Shown here: positions 2,414 to 62,932 of the stretch, in pieces
Layout: each line of letters begins with the position of its first letter
Numbering within the stretch: the first letter of the stretch is position 1
Source of the DNA: Longitalea luteola
GTDB lineage: Bacteria > Bacteroidota > Bacteroidia > Chitinophagales > Chitinophagaceae
Reading direction: 5' to 3'
Assembly (NCBI RefSeq): GCF_017356035.1
Contig: NZ_JAFIQX010000016.1
Coordinates: 62,001-126,000 of the forward strand
DNA: 64,000 bases
Notes under the pieces: model-generated
Told to the model about the DNA's origin: nothing
The model's input: only the letters and a program-made list of their open reading frames with translations
Databases searched by the model: none
Position numbers and translations under genes: made by a program

Positions 2414-2465
2414 ATTATCACATTATCACATTAGCTAATTAGCTAATTAGCTAATTATCACATTA
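2414..2465. repeat. 8-bp array (ATTATCAC / ATTAGCTA)
   Basis: About six octamer units sit between SusD and the metallohydrolase gene. The SusD stop codon (2463-2465) lies in the last unit. Confidence 0.8.
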
Positions 2466-3917
2466 CCTCGGGTTCTGCTCAATACCGGCCAGTTTCGCTA
2501 CATCCGGGATCTGGAACACCCGCATCGGATCATCAGCCCGAAGTGTAAGCGTTTTTCCTTCAACGGTAGGATGTACCACCGGTACTTTATAGCGCAACAG
2601 ATCGAACCAGCGCATCCCTTCCTGTACAAACTCCGCGCGCTTAAAGTCCATCACGGCTGCCAGCGAAGCCTGTTGCACATTATTGGTGCGGTAAAATGAC
2701 CGCAGCCGGCCGGCCGTGATCGTATGTTCCGATGCATTGTAGTTGTAGATGCGGGTGCTCGCATAATCGTTCAGGTCTTTTATTACATCATTGATATTGT
2801 TCAGCAGTACATTGGCTTCAGCCCGGTTGAACAACACTTCTTCCGTGGTGAACAGGGGCACCATCACATAGGGCAAACCGATCTCGGCATTGACCGACTC
2901 CCGCACAAAATATTCGTTCACCTTGGGCAAAAAGTAATTGTTGGTGCCTATAGTATACAATTGGTAGCGAAAGACGCCGCTGCCACCGGTTACGTTAGGC
3001 GCCAGTAGTATTTCATTTGATTTTGTTGCATCCAGTCCGTAACGAATGCCAATGTAATTGCGTCCCCAGAGCGACCGCGTTTCTGCCAGCAGCAGGTTGG
3101 CCGCTTCCGTAGCCTTGGCATAACGCGCCCAGAGCTCGTTATAGGTCAGCACGCGGTACTCGCTATTCCAGGGCCGCAGCAGGGCCGCTACATTGTTATT
3201 GGGAAAGATCTTTGCCGCATGCTCCAGCACTTTGGTGTATTGCCGCTTGAACAAATAGAAACGGGTGGCAAATGCATGGGCCGCCGCCTTGTTAAAATGA
3301 TAGCGCGGAACATTGTAATGTTTGTCATCGATCAAAGGCAGTCCTTCTGTAAGGTCTTTTTCAATCATCTCATACACGTACTGCACGGTCTTTCTTTCAT
3401 ATTGTTCAAAGACCACTTTCTCGGGTTTAAGTACATAAGGAATACCAGGGTCGGCGCCAGCCGTAACAGGATCATATACTTTAGAGAAAAAGGTCACCAG
3501 CATGAAATGTGCATAAGCCCGGCAAAGCAAGGCTTCGCCTTTCTGCGCCTGGTAATTTTCCGGGTCTTTTGCATTCATACAAACTTCCAGGGCCTGGTTG
3601 GCTGCGGCAATGGCCGCATAACACGCATTCCAGTAAAACTCTGGTGAATCTTCTTCATTATTAGCAACGTCCCGGAAATTAAAAGGATCTATATTCGTGC
3701 GCTCCAGATCGCCAATGCCTTTATCGGCCACATTATCTGAAATGGATTCAGCGAATGCCATGTAGTTGGCCTGCGGGTAAGCAGTACCCAGTAATTGAGC
3801 TACTTTCTCCGGCGAGTTCAATACCGCCCGGTTATCCGGTGGCTGCTCCAGGAATTTTTTACAACTGGCAACTCCCAACAGTAGGATGACTGATGAGTAT
3901 AGTAATGTCTTTTCCAT
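2463..3917 (-). CDS. SusD/RagB-family nutrient-binding lipoprotein
   Basis: A 484-residue SusD homologue: signal peptide with lipobox Cys19 (GVASCKK), the start FLEQPPDN typical of the family, TPR-like helices in the first half, and a C-terminal segment with RAEFVQEGMRWFDLLR, a hallmark of SusD proteins. It would form the surface lid that hands ligand to the SusC channel encoded just upstream. Spacing to SusC is about 100 bp and contains an inverted 7-bp repeat array. The ligand is unknown. The accompanying metallohydrolase argues for a peptide-like cargo rather than a glycan, which is inference. Confidence 0.93.
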   Translation of the reverse strand: MEKTLLYSSVILLLGVASCKKFLEQPPDNRAVLNSPEKVAQLLGTAYPQANYMAFAESISDNVADKGIGDLERTNIDPFNFRDVANNEEDSPEFYWNACYAAIAAANQALEVCMNAKDPENYQAQKGEALLCRAYAHFMLVTFFSKVYDPVTAGADPGIPYVLKPEKVVFEQYERKTVQYVYEMIEKDLTEGLPLIDDKHYNVPRYHFNKAAAHAFATRFYLFKRQYTKVLEHAAKIFPNNNVAALLRPWNSEYRVLTYNELWARYAKATEAANLLLAETRSLWGRNYIGIRYGLDATKSNEILLAPNVTGGSGVFRYQLYTIGTNNYFLPKVNEYFVRESVNAEIGLPYVMVPLFTTEEVLFNRAEANVLLNNINDVIKDLNDYASTRIYNYNASEHTITAGRLRSFYRTNNVQQASLAAVMDFKRAEFVQEGMRWFDLLRYKVPVVHPTVEGKTLTLRADDPMRVFQIPDVAKLAGIEQNPR

Positions 3918-3926
3918 GATTCAATC

Positions 3927-4010
3927 TGTTACAAGTTTCAGGTTTCAGGTTACAGGGGTTATGGTTATTGCTTTTCCTTGCAGCTTGTAACCTGTAACCT
4001 GAAACCTCTG
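3927..4010. repeat. inverted 7-bp array between SusC and SusD
   Basis: Units of the GTTTCAG/GTTACAG type on the left and their reverse complement on the right. A perfect 17-bp inverted match (3940-3956 with 3991-4007) leaves a 34-nt loop. It lies inside the operon, 5 bp from the SusC stop, so it could form an mRNA hairpin that lowers or protects distal expression. Confidence 0.85.
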
Positions 4011-4014
4011 TCAT

Positions 4015-9760: not shown

Positions 9761-10200
9761 TTAGTTTAAGGTTTATGCCGTTAAAATATAAGTTTTATGC
9801 ACCAGTCTCTCAACCAGGTACATAAACGTAAAGCCGCGTCGCTAAAGGCCTCGCTTGGAAAAAGCTTCGCGAAGGCACAGCGGACAACTGTACGATGACG
9901 GGCGCGGAAATGAGTTGCTATGATTCGTGCATTCCGTTTGTAATGTCAACAAGCAATGTAGAAGGCATTTTTAACAGGTACGTTCTTACTATTATAGAGT
10001 TCGCTCCCCCGCTGCCTTTCAGCGGCATTCATTCTGTTTCTTTCATGTACAGCATTATTTAACAGCGGATTGAATTCCTAATGTACTGAAAAAGTTTTGA
10101 AACTTACAAACGTTTATGCCAAAATGTAAGGAACATTATCTGTTCTATGCGGTCGCATTCATTAGGGGATAGTTTTATATTTATTGAATTCCAGTTCCTT
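9761..10200. other. intergenic region without recognised gene
   Basis: About 440 bp between two minus-strand sigma genes. It should hold the promoter of the 9179-9760 sigma operon, but no convincing TAnnTTTG element was located. No ORF with coding character was seen. Confidence 0.5.
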
Positions 10201-10289
10201 AGTTATTCAGTTATTCAGTTATTCAGTTCATAAGTTATTCAGTTCATAAGTTGTTTAGTTTATCAATAACTCAATAACTCAATAACTTG
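10201..10289. repeat. inverted 8-bp array (GTTATTCA / TCAATAAC)
   Basis: Left arm of GTTATTCA units, right arm of near-complementary TCAATAAC units. The array runs into the sigma gene, so the last codons and the stop (10279-10281) lie in array sequence. Confidence 0.85.
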
Positions 10290-10881
10290 TCTTTCCGACA
10301 AAATAAATAAAGAGGGGAATGGAAAACAGATCAGCAGCGATCAATTGTTCCCGCAATGACCGGATGGCGTTCATGCGATGTTGCGCTACCGCTACCGGTG
10401 TAAGGTTCAGCTCTTCGGCGGTAGCTGGTATGGTGCGGCGTTCCCAACAGGTAAGCCTGAAAATGGCTTGCTCCGGTTCAGGCAAATCCAATAACTGCTG
10501 CTGCAGCTCGTGAAGCGCAGCTGAACGTACGGCGTCATCATCATACCGGCTGTCAGCCTGCCGGGCCTCTTGCAACCAACTGACACCGACAACGGGGGCA
10601 TCGGCTTTTTCTGCCCTGATATAATTAAAACAGGTATTGCGCACTGTTAGATACAGGAATGCCTTTACATCCTCCTTACTATTAAACCGGTCACGCATCA
10701 GGAATAATTTTATAAATGTGTCCTGAACAATAAAATGCGCTTCCGCTTCATCAGCGATCAACTGGTTGGCGAAATCTGTTAACAGCGAATAATGGGCGTT
10801 ATATAATTCTTTAACAGCGAGGTAGCTGCCTTGCCGAAAATCAGTAAGGCTATCATGGTTACGGGGTTCCGTCATGGGCAT
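10279..10881 (-). CDS. divergent ECF sigma-70 factor, unpaired
   Basis: A 200-residue sigma factor with region 2 (about 20-90, VQDTFIKLF and FLYLTVRNTCFNYIR) and region 4 (about 125-175, LNLTPVAVAQHRMNAI as helix-turn-helix). Region 2.4 is less conserved than in the neighbour. No FecR or other anti-sigma gene lies beside it and it is transcribed separately, 0.5 kb upstream of another sigma operon. Its target genes are unknown. The last few residues are encoded by the adjacent 8-bp repeat array. Confidence 0.85.
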   Translation of the reverse strand: MPMTEPRNHDSLTDFRQGSYLAVKELYNAHYSLLTDFANQLIADEAEAHFIVQDTFIKLFLMRDRFNSKEDVKAFLYLTVRNTCFNYIRAEKADAPVVGVSWLQEARQADSRYDDDAVRSAALHELQQQLLDLPEPEQAIFRLTCWERRTIPATAEELNLTPVAVAQHRMNAIRSLREQLIAADLFSIPLFIYFVGKTSY

Positions 10882-11230: not shown

Positions 11231-11656
11231 ATGTACACTGGTTTGCTTAAAGCCCCGGAAGAGGGCATTTGTCACCTGTTCTATTATTGTTGCATGAAAG
11301 ACGGCGCATTCAAAGATTCGGAGCTGGATATCATTTCTGATAAAATGGTTAGTATAGATATCCACAAAAAACTCAACTTCCGGGATGAAATGCAAAAGTA
11401 CAAATCGTACAAGGACCAGATCACGGACGAAGAAGGTTATCTGAAATACCTGATCAGTATCATCAAACCTACCCATACACTTGCATTGTATTCCTGGTGC
11501 CTCGAACTGTGTACCGGAGATAACACCATCAGTTTTGAAGAAGAACAATTGTTGTCACGGATCGCCCGCTTACTTAATATCGGTGAAACAGAACAAGCGT
11601 TGTTACAAAGATTAATGATCCAAAGAAGTGCGGTGCTAAAAGATAAGGAGTTCTAA
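11231..11656 (+). CDS. TerB-like protein
   Basis: A 141-residue all-helical protein with no signal peptide. Its pattern of acidic motifs (DGAFKDSELDII near the start and TGDNTISFEEEQLLSRIA near the end) is typical of the TerB/DjlA-like fold, in which paired helices carry acidic, metal-binding positions. TerB-like proteins are linked to tellurite resistance and membrane-associated stress complexes, but in Bacteroidota stand-alone copies have no settled role. No other ter genes are nearby. The stop codon is part of a GTTCTAA repeat unit. Confidence 0.7.
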   Translation: MYTGLLKAPEEGICHLFYYCCMKDGAFKDSELDIISDKMVSIDIHKKLNFRDEMQKYKSYKDQITDEEGYLKYLISIIKPTHTLALYSWCLELCTGDNTISFEEEQLLSRIARLLNIGETEQALLQRLMIQRSAVLKDKEF

Positions 11657-11692
11657 GTTCTAAGTTCTAAGTTCTACGTTTTAAGTTCTACG
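11650..11692. repeat. 7-bp array (GTTCTAA / GTTCTAC)
   Basis: Six heptamers. The TAA stop of the preceding gene (11654-11656) is the end of the first unit. Confidence 0.85.
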
Positions 11693-11750
11693 TGCACATT
11701 CACCTTGAGGCGATCGTTGAATTAAAAATCAAATCAAAAAATTAAGAATC

Positions 11751-13878: not shown

Positions 13879-13928
13879 ATGATGTGTTTTGGATACTAAA
13901 GATAAGCTTAACGGTTCACAGTTAACCA

Positions 13929-14098
13929 GTTACCGGGTGCCAGTTGCCGGGTGCCGGTTGCCGGGTACCGGGTGCCGGTTACCGGTTACCAGTTGCCGGG
14001 TGCCGGTTACCGGTTACCAGTTGCCGGGTGCCGGTTACCGGGTACCAGTTGCCGGGTGCCGGTTACCGGGTACCGGTTGCCGGTTACCGGTTACCAGT
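13929..14098. repeat. 7-bp array, GTTACCG / GTTGCCG / GGTGCCG type
   Basis: About 24 contiguous heptamers matching G-K-T-R-CC-R, with a higher-order period near 28 bp. All are in one orientation. It lies between the divergent ggt and L,D-transpeptidase genes. The three forward frames are open only because of base composition. Confidence 0.92.
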
Positions 14099-14273
14099 TC
14101 ATTCATTTTGCACCGCAAATAGGTGTAGAATTAATTCCACAGCACCTGTATTTGTTCTCTTTATAAATATGGTTGAACCAGATCAACTTAGAACAGAATA
14201 CATTAAGTTTTACTAGTATACCATTGAACAAGCGAGCCACCATTGATGGTACAAAATTTCATTAGCATGAACC

Positions 14274-16635: not shown

Positions 16636-16909
16636 ATTCACTGCCAGTTACCGGATGCCGGATGCCAGTTACCGGTCGCCGGTTGCCGGTTTCCAGTCGC
16701 CGGTTACCAGTTACCGGGCGCCGGATTCCAGTTACCGGTTGCCGGTTTCCAGTCGTCCGTTACCAGTTACCAGTCGCCAGTTACCGGGTGCCGGTTACCG
16801 GATTCCAGTTACCAGTGCCAGTTACCGGGCGCCGGTTGCCGGTTTCCAGTCGCCGGTTACCAGTTACCAGTTACCGGGTGCCGGATGCCAGTTACTGGGC
16901 GCCGGTTAC
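16636..16909. repeat. 7-bp array, GTTACCG / GTTGCCG / GTCGCCG type
   Basis: About 38 contiguous heptamers of pattern GNNNCCR, the longest array of this type in the window and the same family as 13929-14098. A CACCATT-type array follows directly. Confidence 0.92.
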
Positions 16910-16970
16910 CATTGACCATTCACCATTGACCATTCACCATTGACCATTCACCATTGACCATTCACCATTC
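16907..16970. repeat. 7-bp array (GACCATT / CACCATT)
   Basis: Nine alternating heptamers joined without a gap to the preceding GNNNCCR array, so two unit families are fused at one site. Confidence 0.9.
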
Positions 16971-17127
16971 ATCTCTCACTTTAGCCCTAATCTCCATATC
17001 ATCACATTGGCGTTAAATTTCTACGCATTTAACAATGTTTTTCCCCAACCAGTTTTCATAATACATTGAGTGTCAATACAACCAGGCCGGGGCATCCTTT
17101 TTAATTGTATATAGTAAACATAGAATT

Positions 17128-20632: not shown

Positions 20633-20729
20633 GTGTTTTTGTTTGATTGCAAAAGTAAATAGGTTAATACTACTTTGTATTATGGTTTTTTAAACAATTG
20701 AACGTTGAACCCAATAAACGTGATGTGTC

Positions 20730-20845
20730 AGTTACCGGTTACCAGTTGCCGGTTTCCAGGTCTTAAGGCGGAATGTCCGCATGTAATCAGCCTGCTATTA
20801 ATTTAAACTCCTGGCAACTGGTACCTGGTAACTGGTGACCGGTAA
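20730..20845. repeat. inverted 7-bp array (GTTACCG / GTTACCA against its complement)
   Basis: Left arm 20731-20760, right arm 20810-20845. The arms are near-complementary over most of 30 bp. It sits between divergent genes, so it may carry or affect their promoters. Confidence 0.8.
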
Positions 20846-28873: not shown

Positions 28874-28882
28874 TCAGCCGAT

Positions 28883-34715: not shown

Positions 34716-34752
34716 CGCTAATCATAACGCTCACTTTATTCCGACGCCTCAT

Positions 34753-36825: not shown

Positions 36826-36831
36826 GGTTGT

Positions 36832-36901: not shown

Positions 36902-36929
36902 ATTTAAGCATCTAAATTAAGCGCTAAAC

Positions 36930-38961: not shown

Positions 38962-39120
38962 ACCTTGCAGACTCTCTGTTGTTGGCTGATACCAGCTATT
39001 ACATTCTCAACACTTAAGACCGGCTGAACACCAGCAAGGTGTACTTCATTTATTTTCATTACAAAACACCCGTTCCTGACACTATTTAAAGTGCCAAAGG
39101 GTATTAACCATTTATGCATT

Positions 39121-40698: not shown

Positions 40699-40700
40699 AA

Positions 40701-40868
40701 GCTGAAGGCTTAAGGCAAAAGGCTAAACGCTGCAACCCTATTGGCTATCCCCGCCTCCAGCGGCATCCTCACGAGGCATCGGAAGTTAAAGCTGTTACAC
40801 AGGAGTTGTATTTGGCGTTCCGCGTTATGCGTTCCGCGTTTTGCGTTTTGCGTTAAGCGTTCAGCGTA
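40701..40868. repeat. inverted 7-bp array (GCTGAAG / GCTAAAC against GCGTTCC / GCGTTTT)
   Basis: A left arm of five heptamers and a right arm of seven (GCGTTCC, GCGTTAT, GCGTTTT, GCGTTAA). It joins the GH20 and nagB genes. Confidence 0.85.
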
Positions 40869-43996: not shown

Positions 43997-43997
43997 A

Positions 43998-44112
43998 ATG
44001 TTTATGGTTTATGGTTTATAGTTTATAGTTGGTTCGAAATGCGGGAAGTCTGCCATTCTTCAGCAGCCAGCTTCTGAAGAACCATAAACCATAAACTACA
44101 AACCATAAACTC
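43998..44112. repeat. inverted 7-bp array (GTTTATG / GTTTATA against CCATAAA)
   Basis: Left arm 43998-44030, right arm 44083-44112, exactly between the stop codons of two convergent genes. Confidence 0.9.
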
Positions 44113-44116
44113 CTAG

Positions 44117-45423: not shown

Positions 45424-45456
45424 TGCTATTTTGCTAATTGGCTAATTGGCTGATTA
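45424..45456. repeat. 8-bp array (TGCTAATT / GGCTAATT)
   Basis: Four octamers between the two kinase genes; the last unit contains the stop codon of the giant kinase (45454-45456). Confidence 0.75.
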
Positions 45457-48400
45457 CTTATAGAACCATACCCTCATCAGTGACAGCAATTGATCTATTT
45501 TCAATGGTTTGGTAATATAATCCGACGCTCCTGCCTCAATACATTTCTGCCTGTCGCCTTTCATCGCTTTTGCCGTAACAGCTATAATTGGCAAAGTACT
45601 GTTCTTATGTTCGCGCCGTATTTTTTGCGTGGTCTCATAACCGTCCATTTCGGGCATCATAATATCCATCAGCACCATATCAATTTTCGGGTTGTCGTCC
45701 CGGATAATATTAATGGCCTCCTTTCCACTCTCGGCCGTGATCACATTTATGTTATAACGCTCAAATACGGTTGTTAGTGCGAACAAATTGCGTACATCGT
45801 CATCCACGACCAGAATATTTTTGCCGGTAAGGATATCTTCCTTTTTCCGGATATTCTCTATGATCTTGCGTTTTTCAGCCTGCAGGTCTTTATGGTTGAT
45901 ATGCAGGTGCAGCACGGTCTCTTCCAACAGGTGCTCCAGTGAATTGACCCCTTTCAACAGGATCTTACTGGATACATTGTTCAGCTGCTGCAATTCCTTT
46001 TTATTGAATTCTTTGGCAGAATACATAATTATCGGCGTGAGCCTGGGTTTACTTTCCGCCACCTGGTTTACGAGCTCATGGCCCGGCAGATCGGGCAGGG
46101 AATAATCCAGGATAATGCAATCGAAATCCTTACTGTTGATCTCATGCATGGCTTTTTCACCGGTTTCGGCCAGCGTTACCTGCATATTATCGGAATTCAG
46201 CAATTTGACGATCTGCGATGAATCCACTTCATTATCTTCCACCACGAGGATCTGTTTAACCTCTTTTTTGTTAAAGGCCACAATATCATCGAACAGGTCG
46301 TTGAGCGATTCATTATCCAGTGGTTTCAACCGGAAACTGCGGGCGCCTCGTTTTAATGCCAGTGCCCGGTTCTCTTCACCCGAAATGAGGTGAATGGGGA
46401 TATGCCGGTAGCTGAGGTCATTACGCAACAGCTCCATCACCTTCCAGCCGCTGGTATCAGGCAGCTTCACATCGAGCGTGATGGCAATAGGTGTAAACCG
46501 GTTGATAAAGTCGAAGACTTCAATATAGTTGGTAGCTACAATAGCTTTCAGTCCATACTGATGCGCTTTTTCGATAATGATCTTTCCAAACCGGATATCA
46601 TCTTCCACGATCAGGATCGCCTTTTCGTTCGGCTGTACATTATTGCGGTCGTCACCGGTATCATTGATCATTTCATTTACGATATGCAAGCCGCCTGCTT
46701 CCGAGCTCTCACCAGTAACCCTGATCGAATTGAGCAGGGTATCTATTTCACCGCTTTCCGTGCTCAGCTGGTACTGGTATTCCGACAGGTTGGCCGGCGC
46801 TTCGCGGGTTACTACGCCGGAAACATTTTCTATGGGCAGGAACAGGGTGAATGTACTTCCCTGACCCGGCTGACTGTCGAGCTCAATGGTACCGCCTAAC
46901 AGTTCCGTTAAACCGCGGCTGATGGACAAACCCAGACCGGTTCCGCCATATTTACGGCTGGTGCTTCCTTCTGCCTGCTGGAAGGCCTCAAAGATGATGC
47001 TTTGTTTTTCGAGCGGAATACCGATACCGGTATCGCTGATGGCAAAAGCAACCACGCGCTGGGCCGTATCCAGGGATGCGTTGCCCGGTTTCCAGTTGCG
47101 GTTGGCTTCGTAGATCTTCAGCTTCACCTCTCCTTTTTCGGTAAACTTGAAGGAGTTTGATAACAGGTTCTTCAGGATCTGGTTCAACCGTTGTATATCG
47201 GTCTCCATGGTTTCCGGCAGCCTGGTATCTGTTTCTATAGTAAAGCGTAAATGACGCGCTTCTGCAATTGGTTTGAAGGTGGTTTCCACAAAGGAAGTGA
47301 TCTCGAAGAAGCGTACCGGCGCAATGTTGGCGGTAATGAACCCTGATTCGATCTTCGACAGATCGAGAATGTCATTGATCAGCTGAATGAGGTCATCGCC
47401 GCAGGAGTGAATGGTCTTCGCATACCGGATCTGCTTCTCCGTTAAATTGCCTTCGGCATTTTCATACAGTTGCTGCGCCAGGATGAGCAAACTGTTCAAT
47501 GGCGTACGCAGCTCATGCGACATATTCGCCAGGAACTCTGATTTATACTTCGACGTAAGCGTTAGCTGTTCAGCTTTTTCTTCCAGCGAGCGGCGGGCTT
47601 CTTCCACCTCCTTGTTCTTCGCCTCCACTTCGTTCTTTTGTTTCACCAGCAACAGGGCTTTATCCTGCAGCTCATCGTTCGTTCTGCGCAGCTCTTCCTG
47701 TTGCACTTTCAACTCACCGGCCAGCGATTGCGACTGGGCCAGCAGTTCTTCCGTACGGGTATTCGCCTCGATGGTGTTCAATACGATACCGATACTTTCG
47801 GTTAACTGGCTCAGGAAGTCGAGGTGGGTCTGGCTGAACGTATCCAGCGAAGCCAGCTCGATAACCGCTTTCACGTTGTTCTCGAACAATACCGGCTGAA
47901 TGATCACATTGGCCGGTTTGGCTTTTCCTAAGGCAGAGTTGATGCGGATATAGTTGGCCGGTACATTGGAAAGGATGATCCGTTCTTTTTCGAAGGCCAC
48001 CTGCCCTACCAGCCCTTCGCCGATAGAGAATTCTGTTACAATGTTCTTGTCTGATTTATATCCATAAGCGGCAAACAGGCTCAGTTTTACATTCTGGGTA
48101 TCTTCTTCCTGTTTCAGGATATAGAAAGCGCCGAAGTGCGCACTTACTACCCGCGCCAGCTCTGATAAGATCTTTTGTGTTACCGTTTTCAGATCGCGCT
48201 GGCCCTGCAACATCTGACCGAATTTGGCCAGGTTCGATTTCAGCCAGTCCTGCTCCTGGTTACGTAAGGTGGTCTCCCGCAGGTTGGTGATCATCTGGTT
48301 GATGGTATCTTTCAACGCTTCCACCTCCCCTTTTGCTTCTACGCGAATGGTTCGGGTAAGGTCACCTTTCGTTACCGCCGATGCCACCTCTGAGATCGAG

Positions 48401-51400
48401 CGCACCTGCGTGGTCAGGTTCTGCGCCAGCTGGTTCACGTTCTCGGTAAGGTTCTTCCAGATACCGCTTGCACCGGGTACACTGGCCTGACCGCCCAAAC
48501 GGCCTTCAACACCCACCTCACGGGCCACGGTAGTTACCTGGTCGGCAAAGGTGGCCAGCGTATCGATCATTTCGTTGATGGTATCGATCAGCTGTGCTAC
48601 TTCACCGCGCGATACAATGGTCAATTTTTGTTTCAGGTTACCGGTTGCCACCGCCGTTACCACTTTAGCGATACCCCGCACCTGGTTGGTAAGGTTACTC
48701 GCCATCATGTTCACACTATCGGTAAGGTCTTTCCAGGTTCCGGCCACACCCCGTACTTCGGCCTGACCACCCAGTTTACCTTCGGTACCTACTTCACGGG
48801 CCACACGCGTTACTTCCGAAGCAAATCCGCGCAACTGGTCCACCATGGTGTTGATGGTATTTTTCAGATCAAGGATCTCGCCTTTTACGTCGATGGCCAC
48901 TGTTTTCGACAGGTCACCACTGGCCACAGCCTTGGTCACCTCGGCAATGTTACGCACCTGGTCGGTAAGGTTACCGGTCATCTGGTTCACGGAGTCGGTA
49001 AGGTCTTTCCACGTTCCGGCCACACCAGGCACAAACGCCTGTCCGCCCAGTTTACCATCGGTACCTACCTCACGCGCCACACGGGTTACTTCCGAAGCGA
49101 AGGCACGCAGCTGGTCCACCATCGTGTTCAGCGTTTCTTTCAATTGCAGGATCTCACCGCGTACGTCCACCGTAATTTTTTTCGACATGTCGCCGTTCGC
49201 CACCGCAATGGCCACCTCGGCAATGTTACGCACCTGGGCGGTAAGGTTACCGGCCATCTGGTTCACCGAGTCGGTAAGGTCTTTCCAGGTTCCGGCCACA
49301 CCAGGCACGTTGGCCTGTCCACCCAGTTTACCTTCCGTACCCACTTCACGCGCTACACGCGTTACTTCCGAAGCAAATCCGCGCAGCTGATCCACCATCG
49401 TATTGATGGTATTCTTCAACTCGAGGATCTCGCCTTTTACGTTCACATCGATCTTGCGGCTGAGGTCACCATTCGCCACCGCGGTAGTAACTTCAGCGAT
49501 GTTACGCACCTGCGAGGTAAGGTTACTCGCCATTTTATTTACAGAGTCGGTAAGGTCTTTCCAGGTACCAGCTACACCCGGTACGTCGGCCTGACCGCCC
49601 AGTTTACCTTCGGAACCTACTTCACGAGCCACACGCGTTACCTCCGAAGCGAAACCGTTGAGCTGGTCCACCATCGTATTGATGGTATTTTTCAATTCGA
49701 GGATCTCGCCGCGTACATCCACCGTGATCTTTCGGCTAAGGTCACCCTTTGCCACCGCGGTGGTCACCTCGGCAATGTTACGCACCTGGCCGGTAAGGTT
49801 GCTGGCCATCATGTTCACCGAGTCGGTAAGGTCTTTCCAGGTTCCGGCCACACCGCGTACTTCGGCCTGGCCACCGAGTTTACCTTCCGAGCCTACCTCA
49901 CGCGCCACACGTGTTACTTCCGACGCAAAACCCCGGAGCTGATCCACCATCGTATTGATGGTGTTCTTCAACTCGAGGATCTCGCCTTTTACATCCACAT
50001 CGATCTTGCGGCTAAGGTCACCATTCGCCACCGCGGTGGTAACTTCAGCAATGTTACGCACCTGGCCGGTAAGGTTACTCGCCATTTTATTTACACTATC
50101 CGTTAAGTCTTTCCAGGTTCCACCTACACCGGGTACGTCGGCCTGGCCGCCGAGTTTTCCTTCCGAACCCACTTCACGCGCCACACGCGTTACTTCCGAA
50201 CCGAATGAGTTCAGCTGGTCCACCATCGTGTTGATGGTATTCTTCAGCTCCAGGATCTCACCGCGCACGTCTACCGTGATCTTACGGCTAAGGTCACCTT
50301 TCGCTACCGCTGTGGTTACCTCGGCGATGTTACGTACCTGGCCGGTAAGGTTACTGGCCATACCGTTCACCGAGTCGGTAAGGTCTTTCCAGGTACCGGC
50401 CACGCCTTTTACCTGCGCCTGGCCACCCAGTTTACCTTCGGTACCTACTTCCAGCGCCACACGGGTTACCTCACTGGAGAAAGAGTTCAGCTGGTCAACC
50501 ATCGTGTTGATGGTATTCTTGAGCTCGAGGATCTCACCGCGCACGTCCACCGTGATCTTACGGCTAAGGTCACCTTTCGCCACCGCAGTGGTTACCTCGG
50601 CGATATTACGCACCTGGCCGGTAAGGTTACTGGCCATCTGGTTCACCGAGTCGGTAAGGTCTTTCCAAACCCCGCCTACCCCTTTTATTTTTGCCTGGCC
50701 GCCCAGCTTACCTTCCGAACCTACTTCACGCGCCACACGCGTTACCTCGGCCGAGAAGGAGTTCAGCTGGTCCACCATGGTATTGATGGTATTTTTCAAT
50801 TCAAGGATCTCTCCTTTTACGTCCACCGTGATCTTACGGCTAAGGTCACCCTTCGCCACCGCGGTGGTCACCTCGGCGATGTTACGCACCTGGCCGGTAA
50901 GGTTACTGGCCATCTGGTTCACCGAATCGGTAAGGTCTTTCCAGGTACCGGCCACCCCTTTCACCTGTGCCTGGCCGCCCAGTTTACCTTCGGTACCTAC
51001 TTCCAGCGCCACACGGGTTACCTCACTGGAGAAGGAGTTCAGCTGGTCCACCATCGTGTTGATGGTATTCTTCAGCTCCAGGATCTCGCCTTTAACGTCT
51101 ACGGTGATCTTTTTCGACAGGTCGCCTTTCGCCACGGCTGTGGTCACTTCGGCGATGTTACGCACCTGAACGGTAAGGTTACTGGCCATCTGGTTCACCG
51201 AGTCGGTAAGGTCTTTCCAAACCCCGCCTACACCTTTTACCTTGGCCTGTCCGCCCAGTTTACCTTCTGAACCAACTTCACGCGCCACACGGGTTACCTC
51301 CATGGAGAACAGGTTCAGCTGTTTCACCATGTCATTCACCTCTTTGGCAATAGTGGCGAACTCTCCCTGCAATACGTGGCCGCCGATCTCGAGCGGCATT

Positions 51401-51891
51401 TCTTTCGACAGGTTTCCTTTTGCCACCGAGCTGATCACATCCGCGATCTCGATGGTAGGATGCACCAGGTCGGAGATAAGAATATTAAGCGATTCAACCC
51501 CGGTACGCCAGGCGCCACGGGCATTGGGCAGTTCAATACGCTGGTTCAACCTACCCTGCTTACCAATGGTATTACCGGCACGGGTGAACTCCATCATCAT
51601 CTTTTCATTCAGCGAAATGATCTCATTGAGCGTATCGCAGATCTTGCCGCTCAGGCCAACCTGGTCGATGGGCATGCGCACACTGAAGTTGCCGTTCTTC
51701 ACCTGGGTGAGCACATGCAGGAGCTCACGGGAATCGAGTAAACCATTCAGCTGACGCTGGGTGATTTCGCTTTCATCCTCATCGATTATTTTGGCTTTTT
51801 TCTTGGCTGAAGTGATCTTTCCACTGGCAGGCACCGCCGCTGCTACATCTTGCCGGTTTGAGCGAGTAGTACTGGGTTTTGAACGCGCCAT
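45454..51891 (-). CDS. giant HAMP-array hybrid histidine kinase with GAF and three receivers
   Basis: A 2145-residue cytoplasmic kinase. The N-terminal 197 residues contain two divergent HAMP-like units. Then come eleven tandem 92-residue HAMP units (residues about 198-1209), a GAF domain (about 1225-1375), a coiled coil, HisKA (His1459 in [12 protein letters not shown]), HATPase_c (about 1515-1700), and three receivers with acceptors Asp1807, Asp1929 and Asp2076. The repeat unit ([54 protein letters not shown]) closely matches fungal group III osmosensing kinases such as Nik1/Os-1. It should sense a cytoplasmic or osmotic state through helix packing in the HAMP stack. No transmembrane segment. 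Confidence 0.95.
48265..51300 (-). repeat. 11 tandem 276-bp repeats coding for the HAMP units
   Basis: Eleven units of 276 bp encode 92 residues each. Neighbouring units alternate between two or more variants ([21 protein letters not shown] versus [21 protein letters not shown] in the first four, VPGV and VRGV variants later), so copies were probably added as pairs. High identity at DNA level makes loss or gain by recombination and assembly collapse likely. Confidence 0.97.
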
Positions 51892-52404
51892 AATCAGGTA
51901 TTTTTAGTATTTACTTTTAAAATTAGGAACATGGTATTCGAGGGATCGTACTGAGGCAGGTCGGCCAGTTTTCGATGTTGAACATCAGGAGACATGCACG
52001 GTACAATAACGCCGTATTTTGTCTCAAACGGCGTTCCGTTTTTTTTATAATATTTCATACAGCAATTGCTCCGTTTTTTTCATAAACAGTTAAGAAAAAA
52101 CTACACAAATCGCCCCATCCAGGCCATGCAACCCCAAATTGGGCAAAGCATTACCCAAACGATCATGTGGAATAATATCGTAAGCTTGTAAACCCCTCTA
52201 TTTAATTACGGGGCCACGCGCCAATAAAAATTACAAAATTCACTCATATAAATGACCTGCATTTTCGGAAAAAGGCTCCTGTACATCGTGTAACCATGGG
52301 CAGTTGAACGTTGTCGATGGCCAGTCGGTCACCATGTTTTTTTAGTAAAAATACTTAGGAAAGAAATTTTTTTAAAAAAAGTCAGGGAATGGATAAAGGT
52401 GGTG
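51892..52404. other. intergenic region upstream of the giant kinase
   Basis: About 510 bp, AT-rich, with A/T runs (TTTTTTTTATAATA near 52035) and no reading frame with coding character. It should hold the promoter of the kinase gene; no TAnnTTTG match convincing enough to report. Confidence 0.4.
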
Positions 52405-52456
52405 ACTGATGAATGGTCAATGGTCAATGGTCAATGGTCAATGGTGAATGGTGAAT
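52405..52456. repeat. 7-bp array (GGTCAAT / GGTGAAT)
   Basis: Seven heptamers, the complement of the CACCATT/GACCATT family. Confidence 0.9.
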
Positions 52457-52480: not shown

Positions 52481-52935
52481 GCGGCTGTTGCAACTGTGTG
52501 CCTGAGCGGAAGACCCGCTTTAACGGGTGCGCTGCTGCTGTTGCAACTGTACGCTTGAGCGGAAGACCCGCTTTAAACCAGGCACGCTGCTGTTCCTGCA
52601 ATTGTACGCCTGAGCGGAAGACCCGCTTTAAACCAGGCACGCTGCTGTTCCTGCAATTGTACGCCTGAGCGGAAGACCGCTTTAAACCAGGCACGCTGCT
52701 GTTCCTGCAATTGTACGCCTGAGCGGAAGACCTTTAACCAGGCACGCTGCTGTTCCTGCAATTGTACGCCTGAGCGGAAGACTCCTTTAACCGGGCAGGC
52801 ATAGCTGCAACCATCGTGAACAGTTTGCGAATAAACCCCTTGCCATCGGACGTCCATGTGCGGCAGCAAATATCCAATACACGCGAATGGACAACCGCAG
52901 TGCCATCGGGCACCGATCTGCTGCTGCAACTGCAC
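52481..52935. repeat. tandem repeat with a period near 55 bp, each unit holding a small stem-loop
   Basis: Six units (spacing 53, 55, 55, 54 and 51 bp) from about 52485 to 52800, then degenerate remains up to 52935. The first four units carry AGCGG..CCGCT, a 5-bp stem with a 4-5 nt loop; in the fifth and sixth the right side of the stem is eroded. A translated frame exists on the minus strand but reflects the repeat. Confidence 0.9.
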
Positions 52936-53278: not shown

Positions 53279-54259
53279 ATGCAAATAAAACTGATTGCTG
53301 ATAATTTAAAAGAACTGGCGTTTACTGATCAACTTCCAAATTCACTGAACGAATACCTGGTTCCGGGAGCGACGTCTGTTTCGGCTTCGGGGTCCTTCGG
53401 ACATGTATTGTTTCAGCAGATCCAGAGTAATGGGATATTCATCCGCCTGCAACATTTTGTGTTGAACCGGGCCAGCACATTCACTATGATGGAGTTTGAG
53501 CCTTTATTAAAGCTGCGTTTTCACCTCATCAATCATATTCAATATCACATGGAAGGACTGGGCAACCTGGTGTTCTATGAACAGGGCTATAATTTACTGT
53601 ACATTCCTTTTCAGAATAACCGGCTGTATTTTCAAAATGCGGGTGTGTATTTTTCCATCGACATACATTTTCCCGTGTATGTGCTTTCGCAGAAACTGCC
53701 ACCTTTAGTGTTGATGAATGAATTTCAGAAAAAAGTTTTGCACCAGCAGCCGGCCATGCTGGTTCCCGTGAACCAGGTGGCGAGCCGGTCGCTGCTGACG
53801 CATGTTCACCAGTTGATACAATCCGGCAAACGATCTACAGCCTCGCTGCATTCACGGTCACTGACCTTGTTGAATTTGTGCCTGGAAAATATTTCTGAAC
53901 ACCCGGTATGGGAACCCGTAACGCTTTCCATGCAGGAAGCCCAGGCCATTTTTTTGGCGAGAACCAAAATGGAAGAGAACCTGAAACAGGAATGGACCAT
54001 AAAAGAACTGACGCAATTGACGGGATTGAACGATTATAAATTGAAGACCGGATTTCAGCAATTGTATCATAGCAGTCCCGCCGATTATTTGCGCGATATC
54101 CGGATGGAAAAAGCCTGGCAGCTGTTATCGGGAAAAAGATATTCTGTATCACAGGTAGCAGAAGAAGTAGGTTATACGAACTTAAGTGCGTTCTCAAAGG
54201 CGTTCAAGAAGTATTATCATATAACGGCGAGGGAGAGAAGTAAGGAGCATAACGAATAG
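53279..54259 (+). CDS. AraC-family transcriptional regulator
   Basis: A 326-residue regulator. The N-terminal 220 residues form a ligand-binding part with no recognised motif. The C-terminal AraC-type double helix-turn-helix (about 225-322) contains IKELTQLTGLNDYKLKTGFQ, then SPADYLRDIRMEKAWQLL and the signature SVSQVAEEVGYTNLSAFSKAFKKYY. It probably controls a nearby or distant uptake operon; no obvious target is adjacent. The stop codon TAG is the first three bases of a 7-bp array. Confidence 0.93.
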   Translation: MQIKLIADNLKELAFTDQLPNSLNEYLVPGATSVSASGSFGHVLFQQIQSNGIFIRLQHFVLNRASTFTMMEFEPLLKLRFHLINHIQYHMEGLGNLVFYEQGYNLLYIPFQNNRLYFQNAGVYFSIDIHFPVYVLSQKLPPLVLMNEFQKKVLHQQPAMLVPVNQVASRSLLTHVHQLIQSGKRSTASLHSRSLTLLNLCLENISEHPVWEPVTLSMQEAQAIFLARTKMEENLKQEWTIKELTQLTGLNDYKLKTGFQQLYHSSPADYLRDIRMEKAWQLLSGKRYSVSQVAEEVGYTNLSAFSKAFKKYYHITARERSKEHNE

Positions 54260-54294
54260 TTCATAGTTTAAAGTTCAAAGTTTAAAGTTCATAG
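54257..54294. repeat. 7-bp array (TAGTTCA / TAGTTTA / AAGTTCA)
   Basis: Five heptamers starting exactly at the AraC stop codon. Confidence 0.88.
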
Positions 54295-54299
54295 AGCTT

Positions 54300-54373
54300 A
54301 AGTTATTCAGTTATTAAGTTTATAAGTTAAAACACATTGCGGGGTTTTAATAACTCAATAACTGAATAACTAA
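54300..54373. repeat. inverted 8-bp array (GTTATTCA against TGAATAAC)
   Basis: Left arm 54303-54328, right arm 54350-54373. Same family as 10201-10289 and 34753-34850, and a second array fused behind the 7-bp array at the AraC gene. Confidence 0.85.
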
Positions 54374-54812
54374 CAAACTACATATACTACTATAAAAAAT
54401 ATTGATTTTTCGATTTTTTGGCAAAATGTTTTTAGCTGTGAAATTTGGACGGCGTATCGATCACAATGTAACTTTATATTGTTGCATCAGGTAATGATAA
54501 TTGTTATATAAGTATAAGCCCGGTTCCGATCCGTCACTATCTATCAGCCGTATATCACCTGCCCTGGCGGTTGTTCGTTCGGGGTCAGGCAGCAACGAAC
54601 AGAACAATGTCTACATTTCATAAGATAAGGTTTATCATGGTGTTGTATGAATAGTGCTATTACTGCGCTGGCAATGATCGCATATTCGAATTACCGGAAA
54701 TTGGTTCAGCCAATGCACGCTATTGTGAGGGTTTGCATGGCAACTCAATCACTCGCTCCTTTTCGTACATCATTCCGGTTATTCATTATGTTCATTACCG
54801 GCGCATTTTTTA
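54374..54812. other. intergenic region without recognised gene
   Basis: About 440 bp where a SusC-type partner of the adjacent FecR gene would be expected. No coding frame or gene remnant recognised. Confidence 0.4.
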
Positions 54813-55104
54813 CGTAAAACGCTAAACGCGGAACGCGGAACGCTAAACGCTAAAGGCTAAAGGCAAAACGCGGAACGCAAAACGCCGAACGCCGAACGCA
54901 AAACGCGGAACGCAAAAGGCGGAAGACTCTCCTACCCTAACGCTACGGCGGGCAAAGCCGAATGGGCGAAACACTACCAGGACATCGGCGGCAAGCGTTA
55001 GGCCTTAAGCGTTAAGCATATTAAAGAGGGCGAGGCCGAATGCAGAAAGACTGCCCGCGATAGCGGAGGCTGGCGTTAAGCCTTTAGCGTTAAGCGTTCA
55101 GCGT
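54813..55104. repeat. inverted 7-bp array (ACGCTAA / ACGCGGA / ACGCAAA against GCGTTAA)
   Basis: A left arm of about 15 heptamers, a middle stretch of unrelated GC-rich DNA, and a right arm (GCGTTAAGC, CCTTTAGCGTTAAGC) ending 1 bp from the FecR stop codon. Confidence 0.88.
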
Positions 55105-55105
55105 A

Positions 55106-56431
55106 TTAAGGCAGTACGATAATTTTGTTCTTCTCAATTTTGAAGTGAACGCCGCTGTACTCAAGCGTTTTAATTACTGTGGAGAGATTCGCAGTGCGGG
55201 GAATGGAGCCACCGAATTTATAATCAGGTGTTTTACCTTCATAACCTATTTCAACATTATACCAGCGCGACAAAATGCGCATGATCGATCTTAGATCGGT
55301 ATTCCTTAAAGAAATATAACCGTTCTTCCAGGCAAAGGCCGCCTCCATATCTTCCGCCCTGGTCACACTGATCGATCTGCCCGCCACCTTGCCGGCCTTT
55401 GCTATCAGCGCCTGCTGGCCCGGCAGTAATACAGCAGTGTCTTTACCTGACATCACATCCGGCACCGATATTTTTATTTTCCCATTTAATAAAGTGGTTT
55501 TAACAGCAGCTTCATCGCTGTAAGCCATAATATTGAAACTGGTTCCCAGCACTTCTATAGACGCCAGCGGACCTGCCGCGGCCTCACTTGCAGGTGTAAG
55601 AACATCCACTATGAAAGGAACCGTTTCCTCATCACTTGCGGGTACACCTGACGCCCGGCCGGCCACTTCAAAATAAGCTTCTCCGGTAATGCTGACCCGC
55701 CTTTCAGCGGCCGAAAAATAAGCAGGAAATGTAATTGAAGAAGCTGCATTCAGCCGCACTTTACTACCATCCGGCAGCTGCAGGCTGTACTGACCGCCCC
55801 GCGGCGTACTTAATTTGTTATAGGGAGTTGCTATATTCCAGGCTGCCCAAAGCTGCTGATCTGCCTGTTGATTAAAACCTGTTCCTTCATATTTCAACAC
55901 ACCGTCTTCGACTTTCACCACATTCATATTCGCATCCTGTGCCAGTGTTCCATTGGCGGCATCCTCCACCTGCAGCACCCTGCCGTTCGACAGGGTGAGT
56001 GTTGCTTTATTGTCGCCCGGCGCCATATTGAATGAAGCGGGTTGGTACTGTTCAGTCAGTGGTAATTCCGGTTTTTCGGCAGACATGTATTTCCAGGTGA
56101 TGGCGCCTGCTGTCAGCAATACCGCAGCGGCGGCGGCATAGGTATACCAGCGGCGGTAGATCGGAACCGGCTTTTTTATGGTTGCTGCCTGATCGCTGAT
56201 TTTTTGCCACCAGCCCTCCATGTCTACCTGTTTCATGGCCAGCAGATCAGCCAGCAATTGATCGCCATCATTTACAGACTCAGCTACCCCGGCAAAGGAA
56301 GGATGACTTGCCTTCCACGCTTCCAGGTGTTGCAGTTCTTCTTCGGTTATTTCCTGCCGTAACTGCTTCAGCAGCAACGCAGCAAAATAATCCGCATCTT
56401 CCATGCCCGATAAATTTATTGCTGTGTCCAT
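55106..56431 (-). CDS. FecR-family anti-sigma factor, no receptor partner
   Basis: A 441-residue FecR protein. The N-terminal cytoplasmic part (ALLLKQLRQEITEEELQHLEAW) binds sigma; one transmembrane helix (YTYAAAAAVLLTAGAITW) follows; the periplasmic core has the FecR features LPDGSKVRLNAASSITFP, ITGEAYFEV and LGTSFNIMAY, with a C-terminal STN-like part (KFGGSIPRTANLSTVIKTLEYSGVHFKI). It follows the sigma gene at 56662 on the same strand. Unlike the other FecR genes here, no TonB-dependent receptor lies downstream. The start at 56431 (MDTAIN) or 56404 (MEDADY) is uncertain. Confidence 0.93.
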   Translation of the reverse strand: MDTAINLSGMEDADYFAALLLKQLRQEITEEELQHLEAWKASHPSFAGVAESVNDGDQLLADLLAMKQVDMEGWWQKISDQAATIKKPVPIYRRWYTYAAAAAVLLTAGAITWKYMSAEKPELPLTEQYQPASFNMAPGDNKATLTLSNGRVLQVEDAANGTLAQDANMNVVKVEDGVLKYEGTGFNQQADQQLWAAWNIATPYNKLSTPRGGQYSLQLPDGSKVRLNAASSITFPAYFSAAERRVSITGEAYFEVAGRASGVPASDEETVPFIVDVLTPASEAAAGPLASIEVLGTSFNIMAYSDEAAVKTTLLNGKIKISVPDVMSGKDTAVLLPGQQALIAKAGKVAGRSISVTRAEDMEAAFAWKNGYISLRNTDLRSIMRILSRWYNVEIGYEGKTPDYKFGGSIPRTANLSTVIKTLEYSGVHFKIEKNKIIVLP

Positions 56432-56521
56432 AATGTGGCCTGATATAGAAACACCGTTTCCGGGAGCTTCCTTTATAGAATGTCGAAATAATTGCGGTCC
56501 TAACAAAAATCACGTTACCGT

Positions 56522-61844: not shown

Positions 61845-61849
61845 TTAAA

Positions 61850-62893
61850 ATGAAAAACAGATTCCCATATAATTATTGTACGTGGTTTACTGTAGCGGTG
61901 CTTTTGCTAAGCGCCTGTAAAAAGCATTTCTCGAGCGATCAGTTTGAAGACGACAAACTGGTAGTACTGGCCGAGATCACGGCGTTTGATTCGGTGAAAA
62001 TACCTATTGGCAAAACCATCAAGGTGGAGAACGGCAGCCTGATCCGATTTGAAAAAGTGAACGATGCCACGGTAACGCTTACCGAAACCAATGCGATGAG
62101 CTGGATCCTGCAACCTAATTATTCACTGCAATATGCCAATAATCCAACCTCGGTATTTACCAGCAAGAAAAGATTCAGGGCCAATACCACGTATAAGATC
62201 GAGATTAACCACCCTACCTTAGGACTGGTACAGGCATCGACCCATATACCAACATTTCCCCGGTTGATAACGGTAGATACCGCCTCAACCGATCACAATG
62301 GCAAAGACCTGCTTTCAGCGACTATCACCTGGAAGGATTCAGTGGATCACGAAGAATATTACATTATTGAAGCGGTAAAAGAACAGGTAAGGAACAATCA
62401 CTTTTTCTATTACCAGGGTAAACGCTACAGTTATGATACGCAGGCGGGCAAAGCGTTTTACGAAACAATTAAGAACACGCCGGATGTCAGGATCCTCACA
62501 GACACCGTTGGACTGAATAAATATACCCGGCTTTATCTGTACACAGAAGATGATCAGTCGGACAATGCCCGCATCGATGAACTTACCAATCCTTTCAGGC
62601 GGATCTTTTTTACAGATGCTATGTGTAATGGTACTAACTATACAACGCGGGTATTTATCGATAAGCAGTTCTTTGTAGATCCCCGGCAGAAAGGCAGGGT
62701 GCGGCTACAATTGAAATCGGTAAGTAGGGAATTATACAATTACCTCAAGTTATACGAAAAATACAAAACCGACTTTGGTTCAGTACCTGCGAATCAGCTG
62801 GTGTCTCCCACAGGTAATATCGAACATGGATTAGGTATTTTTGGCGGGTCGGCGAAGCGGGAAAGGATCTATTATTTTGATGTGTTGTTATAA
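61850..62893 (+). CDS. DUF4249 lipoprotein
   Basis: A 347-residue lipoprotein (signal, lipobox Cys23 in LLLSACKK) of the DUF4249 family, recognisable from DDKLVVLAEITAFDSVKIPIGKT near the start, NTTYKIEINHPTLGLVQASTHIP and the FGSVPANQLVSPTGNIEHGLGIFGG segment near the end. DUF4249 proteins follow TonB receptors of this type and probably assist ligand capture at the outer surface. It starts 5 bp after the receptor gene, so they are translated together. A 7-bp array follows 2 bp after the stop. Confidence 0.93.
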   Translation: MKNRFPYNYCTWFTVAVLLLSACKKHFSSDQFEDDKLVVLAEITAFDSVKIPIGKTIKVENGSLIRFEKVNDATVTLTETNAMSWILQPNYSLQYANNPTSVFTSKKRFRANTTYKIEINHPTLGLVQASTHIPTFPRLITVDTASTDHNGKDLLSATITWKDSVDHEEYYIIEAVKEQVRNNHFFYYQGKRYSYDTQAGKAFYETIKNTPDVRILTDTVGLNKYTRLYLYTEDDQSDNARIDELTNPFRRIFFTDAMCNGTNYTTRVFIDKQFFVDPRQKGRVRLQLKSVSRELYNYLKLYEKYKTDFGSVPANQLVSPTGNIEHGLGIFGGSAKRERIYYFDVLL

Positions 62894-62895
62894 AC

Positions 62896-62932
62896 CGGTT
62901 ACCAGGTGCCGGTTACCGGTTGCCAGGCACTT
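62896..62932. repeat. 7-bp array (GGTTACC / GGTGCCG)
   Basis: About five heptamers of the GNNNCCR family directly behind the DUF4249 stop codon. Confidence 0.8.

Follow-up and report, generated by a model that had tools for sequence, protein, structure and literature searches.

Heptameric short tandemly repeated repetitive (STRR) sequences are known from filamentous cyanobacteria. Other small bacterial repeats, the repetitive extragenic palindromes (REP) and bacterial interspersed mosaic elements (BIME), are dispersed and intergenic, lie near gene 3' ends and are associated with REP-associated tyrosine transposases (RAYT). Among eukaryotes, foldback elements such as FB and Galileo of Drosophila have long inverted arms of short tandem repeats around a variable core and are likewise dispersed. 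Here, we describe intergenic arrays of tandem 7- and 8-bp units in a 64,000-nt stretch of DNA (the window; positions 62001-126000 of contig C7) from a 7.3-Mb draft genome of 43 contigs, hereafter G000, of a soil bacterium close to Longitalea arenae and Niastella (Chitinophagaceae). We propose, with a probability of roughly 0.45, that most of these arrays form the arms of small, dispersed hairpins of a foldback-like kind that lie after stop codons, and that the arms are lengthened by slippage in steps of 7-8 nt. The proposal starts from direct observations of the 7/8 period, position, polarity, inverted pairing, vocabulary and turnover of the arrays, and of the array-bracketed core of one family.

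Parts of this picture have published counterparts. Rehm et al. (2015; PMC4692102) reported paired GGGAATC heptamer repeats in Xanthomonas campestris and X. axonopodis, and our arrays resemble them in that they too are intergenic, close behind an upstream open reading frame (ORF) and near an inverted partner. In the available text of that paper, the Xanthomonas repeats consist of one G-rich word with possible G-quadruplexes, whereas our arrays use many words, include octamers and have a dispersed core in one family; their G-rich strand falls about equally on either ORF strand, and the polarity that we see is not described. The same text mentions GGGGA(T/C)T arrays of Nostoc. These and the cyanobacterial STRR sequences are also tandem heptamers with several words per genome, but for Nostoc few inverted pairs and a larger intragenic share are reported, with no mention of octamers. 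MacGregor (2015; PMC4679880) reported TAACTGA direct repeats in Beggiatoaceae, cyanobacteria and five Bacteroidetes. These are intergenic heptamers too, are accompanied by arrays of other heptamers in Gramella, Aequorivita and Elizabethkingia, and can be gone in close relatives at the same gene pair; in the Beggiatoaceae genome, however, a single word lies mostly just upstream of start codons, whereas our arrays follow stop codons. Mrazek (2007), as cited in PMC4679880, found that in most genomes no category of such repeats is more abundant than heptamers and, as cited there and in PMC4692102, a patchy distribution, with polymerase contact as an idea for the 7-nt step; the heptamer as commonest unit is common to those long simple sequence repeats and ours, but inverted pairing, polarity and a core are not in the description as cited. 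To the extent covered by the available text of these sources, inverted heptamer pairs behind genes (Xanthomonas) and heptamer arrays (some Bacteroidota) are thus already in print. Octamers, near-stop strand polarity, lineage dialects and a dispersed core were not found in the available Xanthomonas and Beggiatoaceae accounts, and the literature collection searched contained, judged by title and opening of the abstract, nothing on such arrays in Niastella. An earlier note on the window had named the cyanobacterial heptamers as the nearest parallel, which we judge fair, and had known of no such description in Bacteroidota, which the available text on Gramella, Aequorivita and Elizabethkingia (PMC4679880) contradicts.

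Arrays were detected by our own segment scoring at periods 4-12 (cut-off at least 14, or at least 13 in a laxer run), by Tandem Repeats Finder (TRF) and by base autocorrelation of intergenic DNA, expressed as z by lag; gene starts and ends came from our own codon-usage gene caller. The three measures concur that the window contains arrays of period 7 and 8. At a score of at least 14, there are 19 arrays of period 7, 11 of period 8 and none of periods 4-6 or 9-12, and at a score of at least 13 there are 34, while three first-order Markov simulations of the window gave no array at the stricter cut-off. Intergenic autocorrelation in the window peaks at lags 7 (z = 18.4), 8 (12.2), 14 (14.0), 21 (18.7) and 28 (9.2), with a slight rise at lags 6, 13, 15, 16 and 20 (3.2-5.4) and no positive signal at lags 9-12. 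In contig C22 of the same genome (504 spacers, 178,649 bp), the z values for lags 7, 8, 14 and 21 are 23.8, 8.9, 15.3 and 17.1. The signal there is less sharp, since lag 6 equals lag 8 (8.9) and lags 9 (4.0), 13 (5.2), 15 (7.9) and 16 (5.5) are also raised. When the window was joined to 800 kb of C22 (864 kb in all), we counted 98 period-7 and 42 period-8 arrays against 8 of periods 5-6 and 9-12, of which 5 have period 11 and none has period 5 or 9. A heptamer-only rule for unit length therefore fails, given the 42 octamer arrays.

The constraint is also visible outside the arrays. Exact two-copy repeats in 196 kb of G000 intergenic DNA number 61 for heptamers (k = 7; 20 in 197 kb from array-poor relatives) and 13 for octamers (k = 8; 10 in the relatives), whereas the counts for k = 5 (201 vs 223) and k = 6 (68 vs 69) are about equal and k of at least 9 is near zero in both. 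In coding DNA, there is no excess at k = 6 and k = 9, the lengths of in-frame duplications. Repeats of 7 and, as arrays, of 7 and 8 are therefore specifically made or kept. Isolated k = 8 pairs show no excess (28 in 382 kb vs 7 in 99 kb), so that 7 and 8 may differ in behaviour. These counts, like those given below for polarity, partners, distribution, gene-end register, unit stability and arm comparison, contain a few Niastella arrays twice because two N. caeni loci (L004 and L111) overlap by ~4 kb. The earlier note had claimed window-wide arrays of period 7 or 8 in which the period stays fixed while the sequence changes. TRF finds the arrays where it had placed them, our detector gives 30-34, all of period 7 or 8, and all twelve units that it named are present, as rotations. 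The fixed period extends genome-wide, with arrays of periods 5, 6 and 9-12 nearly absent and two-copy repeats of 5, 6 or at least 9 bp not elevated relative to array-poor relatives; the excess at lags 7 and 8, set beforehand as the genome-wide test, is found in C22, with lag 6 raised as well. The earlier reading did not include inverted pairing, the post-stop position, strand polarity or the dispersed core.

Several repeats depart from the simple pattern. A composite block at C22:486417-486821 (locus L093), with a repeat of ~120-140 bp, has AAATCAG heptamers alternating with AAATCTCG octamers that share one AAATC word, so period 7 and 8 can switch inside one locus. In L. arenae, the orthologous counterparts of the spacers at window 31140-31212 and 31711-31753 (locus L105) carry arrays of period 9, 11 and 12, rare exceptions to the 7/8 rule. 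At the start of an NlpC/P60 gene (window 29816-30061), inverted arrays have 32- and 35-bp units (AAGAACCAAAT style) and represent a related type of repeat with a longer period. Elsewhere in the window, 9.5 copies of a 276-bp repeat (48677-51301) lie inside a 2145-aa reading frame and encode a repeated domain of ~92 aa, and tandem repeats of 54-55 bp (52489-52797) and 42 bp (63052-63206) lie outside large reading frames.

That the arrays arise from faulty assembly or sequencing might be suspected from the draft state of the genome, and we consider the probability of this negligible. Arrays are also present in two single-contig genomes, G005 and DXS, and 13 of the 267 spacers orthologous between G000 and L. 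arenae carry a common unit in two separately assembled species, which is why an artefact is unlikely.

The arrays are placed non-randomly with respect to genes. In the 864-kb sample, 138 of 140 period-7/8 arrays are at least half non-coding. Of 139 arrays assigned to spacer types, 32 are in convergent spacers (17.6 expected by random placement), 95 in tandem (80.3) and 12 in divergent ones (41.1); 44 lie within 10 bp of a stop codon (4.3 ± 2.0 expected), and 10 are near start codons (5.0 ± 2.4 expected). They also have a polarity. Within 30 bp of the stop (n = 125), the coding strand of the array is G-rich in 81 cases, C-rich in 13 and equal in 31, and beyond 30 bp the corresponding numbers are 31, 76 and 17. 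This near-stop G-rich bias is present in all four sets examined, including one composed of Spirosoma, DXS, Deminuibacter and metagenome-assembled genomes (16 G-rich, 0 C-rich, 6 equal), with exceptions in Flavitalea BT771 (0, 2 and 4) and G005 (3, 2 and 1). As a side observation, TAG is over-used as stop codon where an array begins within 10 nt (37/116 vs 276/1298 of all gene ends examined). The idea that the arrays are selected for stop codons in all frames was rejected, as near-stop units carry coding-strand stops about as often as shuffled ones (G000 0.38/0.46, L. arenae 0.44/0.41, Niastella 0.63/0.61, other taxa 0.59/0.56).

One promoter-side array stands apart. Window 36832-36899, in the divergent spacer 36826-36929, has octamer-spaced GTTAA motifs that are also found in L. 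arenae (with equal spacer length), N. caeni, N. populi and partly N. yeongjuensis; it looks constrained, unlike most other arrays. Its retention in a divergent spacer of several species, and the recurrence of words with fixed and variable positions, would be expected if the arrays were binding sites for sequence-specific proteins, one protein per word. As a general account this is very improbable, because it does not explain a period of 7 or 8 regardless of word, the post-stop position or the scarcity of arrays in divergent spacers, which hold 12 of 139 where 41 are expected.

Arrays behind stop codons often have an inverted partner. Among 180 near-stop arrays, 43% have one within 300 bp downstream (5.5% in a permuted control) at a median distance of 52 nt (78 pairs), and 17% have a direct copy in the same range (4.4% permuted). 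A survey of inverted array pairs of periods 5-12 in 464 kb found only periods 7 and 8, with 8 pairs in the window and 9 in C22. Five window pairs chosen for folding are very stable (z = -5.1 to -10.7). Together with the location after stops and in convergent spacers, such folds speak for selected RNA hairpins at transcript 3' ends, that is, intrinsic terminators or mRNA-end protectors built of short repeats, and at the site of window 43997-44116 ordinary hairpins resembling terminators are seen by eye in four other species. We nevertheless find this explanation improbable. Arm mismatches show no preference for G.U over A.C (78 vs 64, p = 0.28) and thus give no hint that RNA pairing is selected. 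Array-bearing spacers show neither a clear replacement nor an enrichment of classical terminators (convergent spacers with vs without arrays, 12/34 vs 37/108; tandem spacers, 8/61 vs 62/283, p = 0.16), so we also rejected the narrower idea that arrays have replaced them. Furthermore, arrays are gained and lost quickly, and 57% of near-stop arrays have no detected downstream inverted partner. A search of the window against Rfam 15 gave no match above the gathering score. Copying from arm to arm at each locus was likewise rejected, since an array fits its own partner no better than same-family partners elsewhere (19.2 vs 18.4, p = 0.25; 36 of 79 pairs usable).

The words of the arrays recur across the genome. 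The 98 heptamer arrays form 389 pairs within one mismatch, compared to 109 ± 11 after letter shuffling, and the 42 octamer arrays form 165, compared to 12.6; three word families cover 38 of the 42 octamer arrays. The 'many unrelated unit sequences' of the earlier note are therefore not unrelated, but belong to a small recurrent vocabulary. Exact G000 words explain 49% of 37 L. arenae arrays (shuffled 2%), partly because some of these arrays are orthologous, 12% of 51 arrays in six other Niastella species, 4-10% of those in other genera and none of the nine in G005, with 0-4% for shuffled words. Other lineages have recurrent words of their own, with 29 near-identical pairs in the single genome DXS (4.6 shuffled) and 35 in the Spirosoma samples (4.7 shuffled); four of the loci sampled in Spirosoma are orthologous to one another, and inheritance may account for recurrence there. 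The nine arrays of G005 have no recurrent words. The vocabulary thus looks like lineage-specific repeat families and not like one universal slippage preference. Judging from the word lists, the arrays are not generally G-quadruplex-capable in the manner of the Xanthomonas word, since GTTACAG, GTTTATG and GTGCTAAT arrays have no GGG; GATTTCGG octamers have GGG runs. We also considered a ruler of equal stability, in which AT-richer octamers match heptamers in unit stability. The two are about equal in G000, L. arenae and Niastella (in G000, -9.52 vs -9.65 kcal/mol), but the relation fails in DXS and Spirosoma and is based on few octamer families, and the idea was dropped.

For one word family, inverted arms bracket a common core at unlinked loci, as in foldback elements or miniature inverted-repeat transposable elements. 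The 94-bp core of one N. caeni spacer, with the arrays removed, was searched in 11 Niastella/Longitalea samples, which represent nine distinct genomes since G006/G030 and G009/G032 are the same genomes. It matched 14 distinct loci in four of the nine genomes (six in N. caeni, four in N. populi, three in N. soli and one in G000), and at all 14 the core has inverted GTTTRTG and AACCAYA arrays on both sides, some only two units long. The junction between core and array reads CGGCAGCA followed by ACC, or CGGCAGCA followed by ACA. Cores recognised by eye at the orthologous site went unreported by the core search. In Niastella OAS944, the core there is inverted, and in L. arenae, the right arm beyond a similar core has another word. 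The cores so recognised in L. arenae and G031 lie in the spacer that follows a gene with its end at 35576. A 17-mer from the end of the core, with one mismatch allowed, has 8 matches in 5 of 147 genomes of the family. All three exact matches in G000 are array-flanked, one of two in G137, which belongs to another genus, has by eye heptamer-like arms of another word, and the remaining four of the eight are unflanked.

A second family has a common tip. In the GATTTCGG family, there are five tip-to-tip elements, with TTTCTGATTT facing its reverse complement (four in the 800 kb of C22 and one in the window), and in C22 arrays adjoin 7 of the 17 copies of TTTCTGATTT in forward and 8 of the 13 in reverse orientation. 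When motifs were counted per family against random sets, the GATTTCGG family gave 7 vs 2.9, partly from one composite block, and GTTTGTG gave 5 vs 3.4, which is weak. Separately, two short palindromes, around CCTGCCTGCCGGCAGGCAGG and TCCCGCAAAGCGGGA, are found in C22 within or next to array-like repeats that belong to several word families, at 81992-82144, 134349-134565, 450659-450919 and 557642-557765 in a first set and at 132431-132632, 415283-415451, 432604-432755 and 458036-458117 in a second. They are placed as if arrays were insertion targets.

We therefore picture, as a working model, an element of ~80-300 bp directly 3' of a stop codon. Along the gene, the stop codon would be followed by a G-rich tandem array of 7- or 8-mers, a short loop or core, and a C-rich reverse-complement array, with arm words drawn from a limited set that is found again at unlinked loci and in part also in the sister species. 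Such elements may have spread as dispersed repeats, and their arms would lengthen, shorten and change word through replication slippage in steps of 7-8 nt, possibly aided by hairpin formation in a region that tolerates it. The model would not require a function for the host.

Several observations weigh against this model, besides the majority of near-stop arrays for which no downstream inverted partner was detected. The core search gave no match in G031, G005, G032, G033 and L. arenae, and exact core matches in G000 number only three. Ten of the 17 forward TTTCTGATTT copies in C22 lie away from arrays, and a scan of 470 kb from L. arenae gave no TTTCTGATTT tip pair. Alignment to L. arenae of orthologous spacers with both tips revealed no empty site with a target duplication; one spacer qualified, without a clean junction. 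One universal mobile core was rejected, because comparison of 90 array-bearing masked spacers yielded only five similar pairs, leaving most families without a common core; the threshold was probably too strict for short cores, and a laxer look at a single genome also found few. Within one genome, 8 pairs of similar inner flanks join arrays of a single word family and 16 join arrays of different families, with one composite block contributing many of the pairs listed, and the other ten word families tested for motifs gave little or nothing. Compared with Drosophila FB and Galileo, the units and arms are much shorter, and we found no transposase, target duplication or empty site. Finally, the period-7 GTTCTAA array at 11649-11693 (+ strand) starts with the last 7 nt of the preceding frame, stop included, and the L. 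arenae orthologue ends GAGTTTTAA and has no array, which speaks for local birth.

This last case leads to the alternative that the arrays are purely local simple-sequence repeats, in which slippage with a 7-nt bias, set by polymerase contact, acts on post-stop sequence, terminator stems seed the inverted pairs and nothing is mobile. We take this to be a serious possibility without favouring it. In addition to the GTTCTAA array, it accommodates the finding that isolated two-copy heptamers are already stop-biased (21/111 within 30 bp of a stop vs 39/524 for k = 5 or 6, p = 0.0005), the fact that cores are mostly not common between loci, and the turnover of arrays. G000 and L. arenae, whose proteins have a median identity of 93%, were compared at 267 orthologous spacers, of which 199 are array-free, 13 have a common unit (within one mismatch) and 8 have different units; the array is confined to one species in 47 of the 68 array-bearing spacers (37 in G000, 10 in L. 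arenae). Array turnover at orthologous spacers is fast, and both flanks are at least 70% identical for only 17 of 117 arrays in these spacers. Local slippage, however, does not predict a genome-wide vocabulary, a dispersed core or a common tip motif. Moreover, among 116 gene ends the unit register continues through the final 9 nt only 7 times, where 0.6 are expected, which means that origin from the gene's own 3' end exists, as a minority.

We wondered which genes might accompany the arrays. In 33 samples of 39-864 kb, mostly small and from genomes partly pre-selected by one 20-kb locus each, 18 have 2.3-18.8 arrays per 10 kb of spacer; the other 15 have at most one, and 13 of them lack arrays. 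Both Dyadobacter and Chitinophagaceae are divided between array-rich and array-poor members; in Dyadobacter, CY343 and CY323 are array-rich, and CY347 and D. beijingensis are array-free. Y1_Tnp, found in 33 of 34 genomes overall, does not track the arrays. Array-rich G000 has a single copy, and for genomes with array samples of their own the range is 1-14 in the array-rich group (17 genomes) and 1-6 in the array-poor group (11 genomes). This is a further point against mobility by such a transposase and, together with the lack of a single fixed REP sequence here, a difference from REP and BIME. As candidate drivers, Y1_Tnp, Ku, SbcD, Y-family polymerases, reverse transcriptase, XseA and MutS2 were all rejected, as none separates array-rich from array-poor genomes. 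A UmuC subgroup that by score seemed tied to arrays was rejected because a protein search found 68-74% identical relatives in five array-free genomes.

The individual arrays of the window include several inverted pairs. At 3928-4007, a GTTACAG-type array (3928-3956) faces a CTGTAAC-type one (3977-4007; fold z = -5.1), and L. arenae retains both, the second weaker. At 10193-10287, overlapping the 3' end of a sigma factor gene (10279-10881, - strand), period-8 AGTTATTC is directly followed by its reverse complement AATAACTC. The GTTACCG-family pair at 20729-20845 has 22-nt arms that are 91% complementary (z = -6.05). In a convergent spacer at 28868-29018, inverted octamer arrays of the GTGCTAAT family flank a perfect 18-bp terminator-like hairpin (28918-28956; z = -10.7). 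After the gene 39091-40698, AAGGCTG/AAACGCT is paired with GCGTTTA (40698-40867); at this site, L. arenae has no array and, by eye, another hairpin, and in N. populi a different word makes up two period-7 arrays (TAAGTGA and TACTTAC). The GTTTATG/AACCATA pair at 44000-44110 (z = -5.94) fills the convergent spacer between two genes with response-regulator domains, and GTTTRTG-family arrays are also found there in L. arenae, N. caeni and G005. At 54256-54380, a period-7 AGTTCAT array runs from the stop of gene 53279-54259 and is followed by an inverted period-8 pair (54298-54328 and 54349-54380; z = -6.8), and at 54817-55104 the period-7 pair AAACGCT/GCGTTAA (54817-54913 and 55073-55104) extends to the stop of gene 55106-56506 (- strand). 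The GATTTCGG octamer element at 27217-27445 has the tips ATTTCTGATTTC and AATCAGAAAT at its two ends, around period-8 arrays at 27223-27250, 27297-27381 and 27419-27439.

Further arrays of the window lie in other spacers. The period-8 array CATTATCA/CATTAGCT at 2413-2465 ends at the 3' end of a SusD-like gene (2463-3917, - strand), and the L. arenae spacer has period-7 ATTGCCT instead. A period-7 array of the ACCGGTT family with 25 copies (13925-14099) lies in the divergent spacer between gamma-glutamyltranspeptidase and YkuD genes and is absent from the L. arenae spacer. Adjacent period-7 arrays at 16651-16971 belong to the CCGGTTA family (16651-16816 and 16825-16889) and to ACCATTG/ACCATTC (16908-16971). 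A period-7 AGTTCAC/AGTTCAA array (31138-31204, + strand) fills a 73-bp convergent spacer from the TAG stop, where L. arenae has CAGTTGG-type units and N. caeni AACTCAAT. Between an M61 peptidase gene and the next (33649-33850), CGGCAGA/CAATCGA (33649-33742) is followed by CCATTCA (33790-33850), both of period 7, and at 34622-34845 period-7 CGGCAAA and period-8 TAACTGAATAACTCAA occupy a convergent spacer from stop to stop. Period-8 GCTAATTG at 45424-45455 lies at the 3' end of the 2145-aa reading frame (gene 45454-51891); behind it, GCTAATTN octamers occur in the window and in L. arenae, an inverted TTGAAAAT pair in N. caeni and, by eye, an inverted GCTGAAC-type pair under the detector threshold in G005. 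Finally, a period-7 TGGTCAA array is present at 52400-52456, with none detected in the L. arenae spacer.

In the sources as available and cited, the sole explanation offered for the heptamer excess in long bacterial repeats is polymerase contact length, a guess (PMC4679880, PMC4692102). The constraint found here is sharper, allowing 7 and 8 and hardly ever 5, 6 or 9-12, and it accompanies a common anatomy in separate Bacteroidota lineages and, partly, in the Xanthomonas repeats as described in the available text. Since the presence of arrays varies between related sampled genomes, both the ruler and its genetic cause are approachable in Niastella, Dyadobacter and Spirosoma. More speculatively, and in our view rather unlikely, the arrays might belong to a widespread class of bacterial foldback-like mini-elements, with lineage-specific 7- and 8-mer arms placed after stops in fixed polarity, which are spread and re-worded by an enzyme or a replication mode with a ruler of 7-8 nt, the Xanthomonas, cyanobacterial and Beggiatoa heptamers being other dialects. 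If the elements do move, bacteria would have in them a compact counterpart of foldback elements.

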